From contig JAHHIA010000002.1 in NCBI GenBank assembly GCA_019359045.1, forward strand, positions 180,401 to 244,400: a stretch of DNA of 64,000 nt, written 5' to 3'. Shown piece after piece: positions 17,127 through 20,440 of the stretch; positions within the stretch are counted from its first letter, which is position 1, and every line of letters starts with the position of its first letter. The translations under genes and the position numbers were made by a program. The notes beneath the pieces are model-generated. The model was given only the letters and a program-made list of their open reading frames with translations, searched no databases and was not told the DNA's origin. Source of the stretch: Scytolyngbya sp. HA4215-MV1. Its GTDB lineage: Bacteria; Cyanobacteriota; Cyanobacteriia; Leptolyngbyales; Leptolyngbyaceae.

Positions 17127-17972
17127 CTAAACTTTGCCTTTAAGAAACCCGACTAGATTGTGCAGAAACGAGTGGCTGAGCATCGTGGCTTCGGGCACAG
17201 CGGACTCCATGGGCAGCGGTTCTGGCTTGGGATGCGCTGTGATGACAGTGACCAATGGGACTTCTTCCACTAAGCCTGCTGTCACTAAACGAAAGGCAAT
17301 TTGCTGCACTTTCTCCAACGGTAATTGCAGTTGTTGGGCGATCTCCTGCAAGGAAATTGTACCCTTGGCAAACTCCCAAAGCTGCCACTCGGTTTGGTTC
17401 AGCTTCTGTTGGGGTTTACCCTCGATGATGCTCATCACTGCTGAAGTTGGTTCCGGTAGTTTGTTTGCGAGAGCGCTCCAATCCTTCAGCACCCGTAGGG
17501 CTGCCAGGGTGACTTCCGTCGCAGGTGCATTTAAGCCGGTCATCTCGGCAAAGGGTAACGGCGCTTTGCAGTCAAATTGAAACCAGGCATCCTTGAGCGC
17601 AAATAAGGTGCACACCTGGCGCATCACCTGCGTGTAGAACAGCAGCTTGAGTTGCTCCACCGTCAATAAGCCCTGGTTCTTCAGGCTGAGACCGATGGGT
17701 GTACTCACATCACATGTCTGCGCAACACGCAAGGCGGTGTGTTCCCCCAACCAGCCGCGTTGACCAATCATGTAGGCAAGCCCATGCTGATCGAGCCGAT
17801 TGGCCGCCGCTACAATCCGTCCTTGATTGAACCAGATGTAGTGGTTTTCGCGGTACTGCAGTTGATCGTCTGACAGCTTACAGAGGGTAAGTAAGCCTGT
17901 TTTGTTACCCTGCTCCAAAAAATTGAAGAGTTCTGCCAGGGCGAACTCTGATAGATAGCCAGTCACTGCCAT
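17127..17972 (-). CDS. PATAN / DUF4388-domain signalling protein
   Basis: A 281-residue soluble protein. Residues 1-115 match the PATAN (DUF4388) pattern: GYLSEFALAELFNFLEQGNKTGLLTL, then YIWFNQGRIVAAA and GLLTVEQLKLLFYTQVMRQV. A helical C-terminal half ends with a winged-helix-like region (SLQEIAQQLQLPLEKVQQIAFRLVTAGLV, about residues 200-230). PATAN proteins in cyanobacteria include phototaxis regulators that dock on pilus motors and partners. No receiver domain is fused, so input probably comes from other proteins. It is last in a same-strand series after a small GTPase (34 bases upstream), which suggests it is the output of that module (inference). Confidence 0.8.
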   Translation of the reverse strand: MAVTGYLSEFALAELFNFLEQGNKTGLLTLCKLSDDQLQYRENHYIWFNQGRIVAAANRLDQHGLAYMIGQRGWLGEHTALRVAQTCDVSTPIGLSLKNQGLLTVEQLKLLFYTQVMRQVCTLFALKDAWFQFDCKAPLPFAEMTGLNAPATEVTLAALRVLKDWSALANKLPEPTSAVMSIIEGKPQQKLNQTEWQLWEFAKGTISLQEIAQQLQLPLEKVQQIAFRLVTAGLVEEVPLVTVITAHPKPEPLPMESAVPEATMLSHSFLHNLVGFLKGKV

Positions 17973-18006
17973 ACTGTTTTCCTTATAGTCTTTAACGTTG
18001 CGGGTT

Positions 18007-18555
18007 TCACGAAAGAGGCATTAAGTGGGCCTGCATCGAGTGTTGTACCAGGGTGATGACGGCTTGGGCGACAGAGGTTGTTTGGGTGGGATCGACAGCG
18101 ATGATCGGGGGACGCTTGTTAGTACTCAAATAGCCCAGCGCGATCGCAGCATTTTCAAGATCCCAGGCTTCTGGCACGTCCATGTGGGTCAAGCCAATGA
18201 TCATGGGCACGGGCGATCGTTGGCGCATAAATGCACGAATCCGACGGGCCTCGATAAATTCACTCGGTCGATGAGCGGCAACTAAGAGAATATAGGCGTG
18301 CGCTTTTTGAATCAGAATGTCCCACATGAAATCAAACCGGGATTGTCCGGGGGTGCCGTAGAGATGCAGTGCCATTTCGGGTCCAAAAGACAGCCGCCCA
18401 AAATCGAAGGCGACCGTCGTTTTTTGCTTCAGCAGTGCGGTCTCATCCGTTGCTCGACGGTCTGTATCGACCACGGCAATCTCACTGACGGAACGAATAA
18501 AGGTGGACTTGCCGGCACCAACGGGACCAGTCACCACCAGACGCATAATCTCCAT
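18007..18555 (-). CDS. Small Ras-like GTPase (MglA/Gtr-like)
   Basis: A 182-residue G protein. The P-loop GPVGAGKST lies at residues 10-18, a switch-2-like LYGTPGQSRFDFMW replaces the usual DTAGQ, and GLTHMD stands where NKxD (G4) is expected. These traits match bacterial Gtr/MglA-type GTPases that work with Roadblock proteins. The ATG has AAGGAA eleven bases upstream. A Roadblock gene sits 124 bases upstream and a PATAN gene 34 bases downstream, all on one strand, a clear functional set. The non-canonical G4 (T-H-M-D) may alter nucleotide specificity. Known relatives set polarity or gate motility. Here the role is inferred. Confidence 0.87.
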   Translation of the reverse strand: MEIMRLVVTGPVGAGKSTFIRSVSEIAVVDTDRRATDETALLKQKTTVAFDFGRLSFGPEMALHLYGTPGQSRFDFMWDILIQKAHAYILLVAAHRPSEFIEARRIRAFMRQRSPVPMIIGLTHMDVPEAWDLENAAIALGYLSTNKRPPIIAVDPTQTTSVAQAVITLVQHSMQAHLMPLS

Positions 18556-18679
18556 GCAGCTTCCTTAGTTTGAAAACGAGAGGTGTAGCTATGTACAGAT
18601 AAGGGTTGAGAGCAGCGAGCGGGTGTTCCAGCTTTGCGGTTGATGACAACACCCGCCAGCCACTCCTATCGCGATTGCA

Positions 18680-19051
18680 TTAGTTCAGAATCAGTTTCAG
18701 CTCACCCAATGTCCGCTTGATTTCCAGCATGAGCAAGCCCTGTTTCGCAGCTTGATTAGCAAGGACAAGAAAGACCGCATCCGTACCGCAACTAGTCAGA
18801 ATGCCGTACCCTTTATTTCCTTCCACAAAAATGCGATCGACATCGCCTCTGTTAAATTCAGCACTGATGCGTTCGCCAAGTGAGAGCATCGCAGCGGACA
18901 TTGCTGCTGTCCGTTCCTCATCGATCGCTTTTGGTAAACTCGTTGCCAGTGGCAAGCCGTCTGGGGTAACAATGGCTGCCCCTTCGACATCACTGGTCGA
19001 GCTCACAAAGTTTTGGAGCACGCTACTGAGCTTTTCAACATTAATTGCCAT
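18680..19051 (-). CDS. Roadblock/LC7-domain protein (MglB-like GTPase regulator)
   Basis: A 123-residue single-domain Roadblock protein. The pattern is typical: SSVLQNFVSSTSDVEGAAIVTPDGLPLATSLP, then helix ERTAAMSAAMLSLGERISAEF, and strands RIFVEGNKGYGILTSCG and AVFLVLANQAAKQGLLMLEI. Family members dimerise and act as GTPase-activating or scaffold proteins for MglA-type GTPases. Its place directly upstream of such a GTPase gene supports that pairing. Upstream lies a 229-base spacer with a strong hairpin, separating it from the V4R-like gene. Confidence 0.92.
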   Translation of the reverse strand: MAINVEKLSSVLQNFVSSTSDVEGAAIVTPDGLPLATSLPKAIDEERTAAMSAAMLSLGERISAEFNRGDVDRIFVEGNKGYGILTSCGTDAVFLVLANQAAKQGLLMLEIKRTLGELKLILN

Positions 19052-19201
19052 GATTAGATCCTCTTGTAGATTTTGTGGTTAATGAATGAATGCAAGCGGT
19101 TGTGCTGTTACTTACTTCAAGCCTGTGGTGTGTGAGGGTGTGCTTGACTTGGCAGACTGAATCTGCTAAAGCACTAGTACAACAAGGCGGAAGTTCGGCA
19201 A

Positions 19202-19251
19202 CCGTAGGGCAGGCATCTTGCCTACTTGCAGTCGAAACGACTGCGCTACGG
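19202..19251. repeat. Compound palindrome between the V4R-like and Roadblock genes
   Basis: Nested inverted repeats: an outer CCGTAG/CTACGG pair (19202-19207 and 19246-19251), a GTAGGGCAGGCA...TTGCCTAC half-hairpin, and a perfect GCAGTCG-AAA-CGACTGC hairpin (19228-19244). It resembles the small palindromic repeats common in cyanobacterial genomes and could also modulate expression within the operon. No T run follows on either strand, so it is not a classical terminator. Confidence 0.6.
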
Positions 19252-19280
19252 AAGGGTGGCTAGATTTACGCCACAGACTA

Positions 19281-19772
19281 CTAGCCTAAAACCTCAAACT
19301 CAATCACATCGTGGTCACTGCCACGCAGAACAGACTCTATTTGCTTACCTCGCAAACGCTTTCCTGAGATTTGCTCCAGCACACCCTGGACAGCACCGAG
19401 CGTGAAAGTCAGTTTACGGGGAGACCCTTCGGGCTCTCCGGCAGAACAAATGGTTTCCCGGCAGTAAACTGTGATCAATTCCCCGGTTTCGACAATCTTC
19501 TCGATGATGCAGAGTCGGGTGCCCTCTTTACCCAACGCTGTTTGAAGAAGGGCAATGCTGTTCTCAGCAGCAATCCCTTTCCCCGTAAGACCAAGCTGAT
19601 TGGCCACTTGCTTGCCACGTTGACGACCAGCAGAAATCAAGGCGATTGCGGCTGCCTTTTCACCTAACGCTTCTTCAGTCCCCACAACCACCGCTTTGAA
19701 ACAAACAATGCTGCTAAAGTCACCCAACTCAGAGCGCAACTGATTTGTAGCCGGAATTGCAACAGTAGACAT
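19281..19772 (-). CDS. V4R-like (hydrocarbon-binding) small-molecule sensor candidate
   Basis: A 163-residue protein without membrane segments. Its last third matches the V4R/bacterial hydrocarbon-binding pattern: ETICSAGEPEGSPRKLTFTLGAVQGVLEQISGKRL followed by ESVLRGSDHDVIEFEV, that is, a G-x-x-x-G-x-L core helix then a charged turn and a closing strand. V4R domains bind small hydrophobic ligands or regulate partners. The N-terminal half is helical and strand mixed (IVCFKAVVVGTEEALGEKAAAIALISAGRQRG) and not recognised. It lies between a protoglobin gene and a Roadblock gene on the same strand, so a sensor or adaptor role in that module is inferred. Fold assignment is moderate. Confidence 0.62.
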   Translation of the reverse strand: MSTVAIPATNQLRSELGDFSSIVCFKAVVVGTEEALGEKAAAIALISAGRQRGKQVANQLGLTGKGIAAENSIALLQTALGKEGTRLCIIEKIVETGELITVYCRETICSAGEPEGSPRKLTFTLGAVQGVLEQISGKRLRGKQIESVLRGSDHDVIEFEVLG

Positions 19773-19885
19773 AAATCAATACCTCAGAAATTTTTAGGAG
19801 AGATTCTGGGCAGTAAAACCGTTACTGCTTCTAAAGGTCAACAAGGCAATGGCTTGAGGGTGCCTCTGACTCATAAACAGCGTGC

Positions 19886-20440
19886 TTACAGCGTGCCTGC
19901 GCCAGAGGTGATGAGTCGTCTGAATAACCCTTCAGTCCAACCTGTTTCTTTCAGCACAGCAGCGGCAGACACTTCAACGTATGCTTGCTCAATAAACGCG
20001 AGATCAATCATGCAAATCTTGCCCAAAGAGTCTTGCAGAGCCGCAGATTTTCTTTCGGCGCGTAACCGTTCACCTACGGCTTGCACCACCACTGCCATTG
20101 CCGGTACAACGTGCTGTGGACCAATCCCAATGCGGACATGGATCAGACCAATACGCCAACGTCGATCGGCATAAGCATTCCCCCAGTGATCCATCCCCGT
20201 AAACATCTCTCCAAACCAATCAATAAACGTTTCTCGTAGGCGGTGAATGCGTCCTTCAGAAGCATTCAAAATCGCGTTCATCTCTTCATCACGACCCATA
20301 AAGTCATAGAAATGATCAGCCATGTCGGGTGCAATTTCAGTGCCCCAGCTAGCACTTGCTTGTAGCAACTCTCGATCAGCATTAGTGAAGCTGATGCGCT
20401 CTGATATCTTGTTCATAAAATTGTGCGGATCTAAAACCAT
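19886..20440 (-). CDS. Protoglobin (globin-sensor-type haem protein)
   Basis: A 184-residue single-domain globin. The core of the protoglobin/globin-coupled-sensor family is present: ADHFYDFMGRDEEMNAIL, then IHRLRETFIDWFGEMFTG and RWRIGLIHVRIGIGPQHVVPAM, where His101 is the expected proximal haem ligand in the conserved I-H-x-R-I-G setting. Family members bind O2, CO or NO. No output domain is fused, so signalling must pass through other proteins; the genes downstream encode a GTPase, Roadblock and PATAN protein. It is first in that series and follows a 469-base AT-rich upstream region that probably carries the operon promoter. Confidence 0.9.
   Translation of the reverse strand: MVLDPHNFMNKISERISFTNADRELLQASASWGTEIAPDMADHFYDFMGRDEEMNAILNASEGRIHRLRETFIDWFGEMFTGMDHWGNAYADRRWRIGLIHVRIGIGPQHVVPAMAVVVQAVGERLRAERKSAALQDSLGKICMIDLAFIEQAYVEVSAAAVLKETGWTEGLFRRLITSGAGTL

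Follow-up and report, generated by a model that had tools for sequence, protein, structure and literature searches.

In a 64,000-nucleotide stretch of DNA from the cyanobacterium Scytolyngbya sp. HA4215-MV1 (contig JAHHIA010000002.1, positions 180,401 to 244,400; the whole stretch is called the window below), five neighbouring genes of the minus strand encode a protoglobin, a protein of the V4R/Bet3 fold, a Roadblock protein, a small GTPase of the MglA type and a PATAN protein. We consider it probable that these five genes make up one signalling module, in which sensors act on a Roadblock-GTPase core and the PATAN protein is the output. What carries this reading is the identity of the genes, their conserved linkage and co-orientation, the haem ligands of the globin, the fold of the V4R-like protein and the replacement of one sensor gene by another. 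In the order of transcription, the genes are:

20440-19886, minus strand: protoglobin (putative sensor globin), 184 amino acids (aa); proximal His101, distal Tyr45; PF11563
19772-19281, minus strand: V4R/Bet3-fold protein, proposed ligand sensor, 163 aa; AlphaFold2 (AF2) model and Foldseek
19051-18680, minus strand: Roadblock/LC7 (MglB-type) protein, 123 aa; PF03259 (Robl_LC7)
18555-18007, minus strand: MglA-type small GTPase, 182 aa; G1 GPVGAGKST, G3 GTPGQ, G4 THMD
17972-17127, minus strand: PATAN (DUF4388) protein, proposed output, 281 aa; PF14332

The locus spans positions 20440 to 17127, and all five open reading frames are found there on one strand and in the order announced by a first reading made from the letters of the window (the sequence-only reading). 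That reading had also called the spacers short. They measure 113, 229, 124 and 34 nucleotides (nt) in transcription order, so that the description is fair for three of them but not for the 229 nt gap between the V4R-like and Roadblock genes. This gap has a repeat-like look; it is single-copy in the genome, and we rejected a repeat. Terminator-like and promoter-like sites show no excess over chance across the locus.

Conservation of the gene set

We examined a named set made of 80 globin loci and the window. Being anchored on the globin, this set is biased towards it, and a GTPase-anchored set corrects the bias in part only. A Roadblock gene is present in 78 members of the named set, a GTPase gene in 72, a PATAN gene in 49 and a V4R gene in 32, and all copies of module genes in the 80 named loci lie on the strand of the globin. 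When only chains away from contig ends are considered, Roadblock accompanies the globin in 61 of 63 chains and the GTPase in 57 of 63. A separate draw covered 390 cyanobacterial genomes, 85 of which have a globin match: in at least 80 of the 96 globin sites there is a GTPase gene no more than 2 kb away, this count being a lower bound as at most eight candidates per genome were scored. All 80 linked sites are co-directional, and the GTPase is downstream of the globin in 71 of them.

The order of the genes is not the same everywhere. Leptolyngbya-type genomes have globin-(V4R)-Roadblock-GTPase-PATAN, and the usual order in Nostocales is PATAN-GTPase-Roadblock-globin, where at 88% of the PATAN-GTPase junctions the two genes overlap or are at most 30 nt apart. 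Since the order was reshuffled across lineages while the linkage was kept, we take this as good evidence of a functional tie between the genes. A chance neighbourhood is rejected by the co-orientation and by the recurrence across many genera and in another phylum. A conserved neighbourhood in cyanobacteria, which the sequence-only reading had named as a check, is there; the recurrent co-directional linkage rules out genes scattered without co-occurrence.

The other phylum was reached by a plasmid search with the GTPase, which led to Thermus plasmids. On pTthSNM1-7b and pTHEOS01 the order is DUF4388-GTPase-Roadblock-protoglobin, with genes overlapping or nearly touching. A GGDEF-EAL protein stands directly after the operon of pTHEOS01 and a protein annotated EAL directly after the module of pTB1 (T. 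brockianus), so that such a protein follows the module on two of the three Thermus records. Identity between the Thermus and window proteins is 46% for the GTPase, 37% for the Roadblock protein and 22% over 93 residues for the globin. The plasmid search with the window globin gave no match, the Thermus globins being too diverged for this query. The linkage of these genes is thus either old or arose more than once. On pTB1 (L235:4039-6144), three protoglobin-family genes lie within one Roadblock-GTPase-PATAN operon, with the EAL-annotated gene alongside.

The Roadblock-GTPase core and the PATAN protein

The GTPase of the window is a single G domain, and its 182 aa are within the 150-240 aa range of the MglA family. 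In Pfam it matches ATP_bind_1 (E 7e-16); Roc and Ras narrowly miss their cut-offs. Its AF2 model (predicted local distance difference test, pLDDT, 81) matches structures of Arf-like (Arl) GTPases and of MglA. Among its relatives, G1 mostly reads GxxGAGK, and 156 of 157 have GTPGQ as their G3. Thr stands in place of the Arg finger of G2, T46-T47 being invariant in the 44 aligned GTPases (read against PMC4316618). The adjoining gene encodes the Roadblock protein (PF03259, E 1.7e-18), whose Roadblock matches in the PDB include CvnB5 and whose Asp-Gly pair is found in 150 of 155 relatives. GTPGQ, a Thr replacing the Arg finger and Asp-Gly in the Roadblock partner are traits of MglA groups 2-5, and the cyanobacterial members of MglA have been assigned to group 5 (PMC4316618). 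Together with the match to MglA structures, these traits bear out the MglA-type GTPase and MglB-type Roadblock of the sequence-only reading. A Rup-type GTPase is not supported, as G3 is GTPGQ and the GTPase is coupled to a Roadblock protein; coupling to MglB is absent from all Rup members (PMC4316618). A stretch of 54 aa that resembles Roadblock, with 48% identity, also occurs at the very end of a metagenomic single-stranded RNA phage record (NC_074098.1:17-178), which is probably a chimeric assembly.

The PATAN protein matches PF14332 with E 1.4e-25. At its C-terminus a winged helix is weakly matched (HTH_47, E 0.001, short of the cut-off), and Pfam gives no match to a receiver (REC) domain anywhere in its 281 aa.

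The sensor genes and their replacement

The window globin is assigned to the Pfam family Protoglobin (E 1.4e-19). Among solved structures, its closest relative is Tlr1989 of Thermosynechococcus (PDB 8h17, E 9e-87), followed by a globin-coupled histidine kinase (PDB 5ohe, E 1e-13). In the alignment, His101 and Tyr45 of the window globin face His99 and Tyr45 of this kinase, which we take to be its haem-proximal and distal residues, and equivalents of both are kept in 96 of the 96 full-length module globins. The haem-binding His101 proposed by the sequence-only reading is thus an invariant residue aligned with a proximal haem His, and the comparison supports the view that the window globin carries the residues expected of a haem sensor. 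The assignment to Protoglobin and the invariant proximal His do not support a bilin-binding globin of the BBAG kind as its identity. The protoglobin of T. elongatus, whose structure is in the PDB, appears in lists from the first globin surveys onward (PMC1457004). What stand-alone protoglobins do is largely unsettled, and Tlr1989, a solved member, belongs to the family of the window globin; the fixed link to a GTPase, a Roadblock protein and a PATAN protein gives such protoglobins a specific and testable partner. Some close relatives of the globin (L211-L214, L218-L222) stand alone, without Roadblock or GTPase.

The V4R-like protein of the window has no Pfam match of its own, and nine of 42 members of its family match Pfam V4R weakly (best E 0.0017). 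A search of the PDB sequences with a profile of the family gave no match, and the fold search alone succeeded: for the AF2 model (pLDDT 81), the top Foldseek matches are the V4R domains of MopR and PoxR and Bet3/TRAPPC3, with probability 1.00, E 5e-6 to 1e-5 and template modelling (TM) scores of about 0.5-0.7. V4R is homologous to Bet3 (PMC2253512). At the level of the fold, then, the name V4R-like given by the sequence-only reading is supported. We rejected H-NOX for this protein, as H-NOX is lower in the fold list and the family has no invariant His.

Modules without a globin show what may stand in its place. The 34 GTPase chains that have no globin and lie away from contig ends divide into 20 with V4R, four with a bacteriohemerythrin and ten with no recognised sensor. 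Hemerythrin is also present in ten globin modules, usually after PATAN. Another contig of the window's genome bears a second copy, V4R-Roadblock-GTPase-PATAN without a globin, and one genome (G127) has one globin module and two hemerythrin modules (L226, L176, L189). The six sensor classes require 39 changes on a tree of 143 GTPases, compared with 81 after shuffling; the figure is approximate since many forks are weakly supported. This means that the type of sensor was partly inherited and yet repeatedly changed. Hence the sensor genes are of at least three kinds, globin, V4R and hemerythrin, which replace or supplement one another, and the five-gene set is not the unit that the sequence-only reading had made of it: the core is Roadblock-GTPase, usually with PATAN, and the sensors vary between modules.

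The same tree has a well supported group of 30 GTPases (Shimodaira-Hasegawa-like approximate likelihood ratio test, SH-aLRT, 99), which belong to PATAN-less modules, often with two GTPases. An NB-ARC-TPR gene occurs in eight modules, all of them without PATAN; PATAN and STAND genes do not share a module, as if they were alternative outputs. An NB-ARC-TPR (STAND) gene adjoins PATAN-less Roadblock-GTPase modules at L022:15676-17760 and also at L018, L057, L060, L067, L068, L078, L088 and L201. As for the hemerythrins, all 12 of the 12 compared (for instance L026:13031-13468 and L185:2816-3247) have an Asn opposite a His of a DcrH hemerythrin, presumably an iron ligand, so that their iron site may be unusual.

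Proposed mechanism, alternatives and known systems

The core of the proposed mechanism would be the MglA-type GTPase with its Roadblock partner, mostly with a PATAN protein as output. The Roadblock protein is probably a homodimer which speeds up hydrolysis or exchange. Gas sensing (of O2, possibly nitric oxide (NO) or CO) would fall to the protoglobin and ligand sensing to the V4R protein, both as stand-alone proteins. These single-domain sensors would act in trans, the occupied globin or V4R protein docking on the Roadblock protein or on the GTPase and altering the GTP/GDP cycle; the GTPase would then act through PATAN to change a polar machine, for example the type IV pilus motor. In other lineages it may act on a STAND protein or on the turnover of cyclic diguanylate (c-di-GMP). 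That the proteins dock physically, what ligand they bind, which way the effect goes and that motility is the output of the module are our inferences. Contact between sensor and Roadblock has a precedent in HGbRL, a globin-Roadblock fusion of Methylacidiphilum for which a relay of signals from haem to Roadblock has been proposed (PMC4476040). The step from PATAN to the pilus motor is the weakest, because contact with PilB was published for PATAN-REC proteins and the window PATAN protein has no REC match.

Several findings weigh against the single-module reading. With 100-230 nt between genes there is space for separate promoters, nine of the globin chains that lie away from contig ends are without any module genes, and ten of the globin-free modules away from contig ends have no recognised sensor. 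PATAN is absent from 20 of the 63 globin chains away from contig ends (about a third), which shows that it is not the sole output. In the GTPase, G4 is mostly T-H-x-D and not N/T-K-x-D (HxD in most of the 157 relatives, NKD in only 4), and its specificity for guanine is for this reason putative; MglA group 2 likewise does without the Lys of G4 (PMC4316618).

If the genes were merely kept close by a shared promoter region or a common need for expression, with no common pathway, spacers of up to 230 nt could be expected. We regard this as very improbable, given that the linkage is kept despite the shuffled order and recurs in two phyla, and that genes overlap in Nostocales and Thermus. It is also improbable, though less so, that the globin detoxifies or scavenges NO or O2 and is co-expressed with a surface-behaviour module without being the sensor of the GTPase. 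Some close globins do stand alone, and nitrite-reductase and peroxynitrite-isomerization activity is reported for a protoglobin of Methanosarcina (PMC4020757); yet the locus maps show no reductase gene recurring beside the globin, V4R or hemerythrin genes take its place in the module, and in Thermus the GTPase still shares a tight operon with a diverged protoglobin. A more serious rival, which we still hold to be unlikely, is a gas-responsive GTPase switch whose output is gene expression or c-di-GMP or STAND signalling instead of pili; the PATAN protein, which may have a winged helix, would then regulate transcription or another partner. The weak winged-helix match in a PATAN protein without REC, the GGDEF-EAL protein after the Thermus operon and the NB-ARC-TPR genes of some PATAN-less modules would all fit, whereas the cyanobacterial PATAN proteins studied act on the pilus motor PilB (cited in PMC9090330) and, in Myxococcus, type IV pili are what the MglA-type GTPases studied act on (PMC11580455).

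Under the preferred reading of a single signalling module, the variation in sensors points to a switch that would steer the cell and could take up different sensors. A wider proposal, which we advance tentatively, is a platform with interchangeable sensors around a Ras-like GTPase: the Roadblock dimer would be the docking plate for swapped or stacked protoglobin, hemerythrin and V4R/Bet3-fold sensors, which would set the nucleotide state of the MglA-type GTPase, with PATAN, STAND or c-di-GMP outputs. If this is true, protoglobins would be trans-acting regulators of G proteins, and there would be a bacterial operon pairing a TRAPPC3-fold subunit with Roadblock and a GTPase. That V4R or hemerythrin can take the place of the globin hints at a general rule by which small-molecule signals enter bacterial Ras-like GTPases, and the module offers a way in which surface behaviour could be coupled to oxygen or NO in cyanobacteria and Thermus.

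Makarova is said to have described PATAN-linked MglA neighbourhoods in 2006. PATAN genes near MglA-type GTPases were reported for MglA groups 1 and 5 by Wuichet and Sogaard-Andersen (PMC4316618), in agreement with the association put forward by the sequence-only reading. There, as here, PATAN adjoins Roadblock and GTPase, but the globin goes unmentioned in PMC4316618 and the sensor genes appear to be undescribed. Within the open-access literature searched, we found no paper joining protoglobin, hemerythrin or V4R with a Roadblock-GTPase module and no published description of the exact set, as the sequence-only reading had supposed; looking for Tlr1989 in this literature brought up no such description either. 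With the MglA/MglB polarity system of Myxococcus and Thermus, the module shares a Ras-like GTPase with a Roadblock partner encoded alongside and the match of the model to MglA; it differs by GTPGQ instead of TVPGQ and by Thr instead of the intrinsic Arg finger, both as in MglA groups 2-5 (PMC4316618), by its G4 and by the sensor genes added to the operon. The actinobacterial conservon (CvnA-D) likewise has a sensor, an MglB-type protein (CvnB) and an MglA-type protein (CvnD) in one conserved operon, but its sensor is a histidine kinase, and globin, V4R, hemerythrin and PATAN are absent. HGbRL also couples a haem globin to a Roadblock domain; it is a fusion, its globin is flavohaemoglobin-like and not a protoglobin, and the MglA-like gene lies elsewhere in the genome. 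The PATAN-REC regulators of phototaxis share the PATAN domain with the window protein, which differs from them by having no C-terminal receiver match. Cyanobacterial globin and V4R genes are found together in the slr0149-type BBAG clusters too (globin, two V4R and an Fe-S protein, PMC10151467), but that globin is bilin-binding, of the phycobiliprotein kind, and no GTPase or Roadblock is mentioned (PMC10151467).

TRAPP complexes (Bet3/TRAPPC3, longin core and Rab) resemble the module in combining a V4R/Bet3-fold protein, a Roadblock-class protein and a small GTPase; the module differs in being bacterial, any complex in it being hypothetical, and the nearest fold matches of its V4R-like protein are bacterial sensors of aromatic compounds. 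An Asgard archaeon generally does not keep its GTPase genes in operons with those for Roadblock, longin or TRAPPC3 proteins (PMC10933270), and against this background the V4R-Roadblock-GTPase operons are notable. They are also of interest for the prokaryotic roots of TRAPP-type complexes.

Finally we must note what surrounds the locus. Directly downstream of the PATAN gene, on the same minus strand, lie the frameshifted remains of an NB-ARC/WD40-type gene (17100-15914), with an NB-ARC fragment at 16823-16575 and a WD40-like fragment at 16117-15914. Upstream of the globin, a short minus-strand open reading frame at 21211-21002 looks by eye like the remnant of a transposase.

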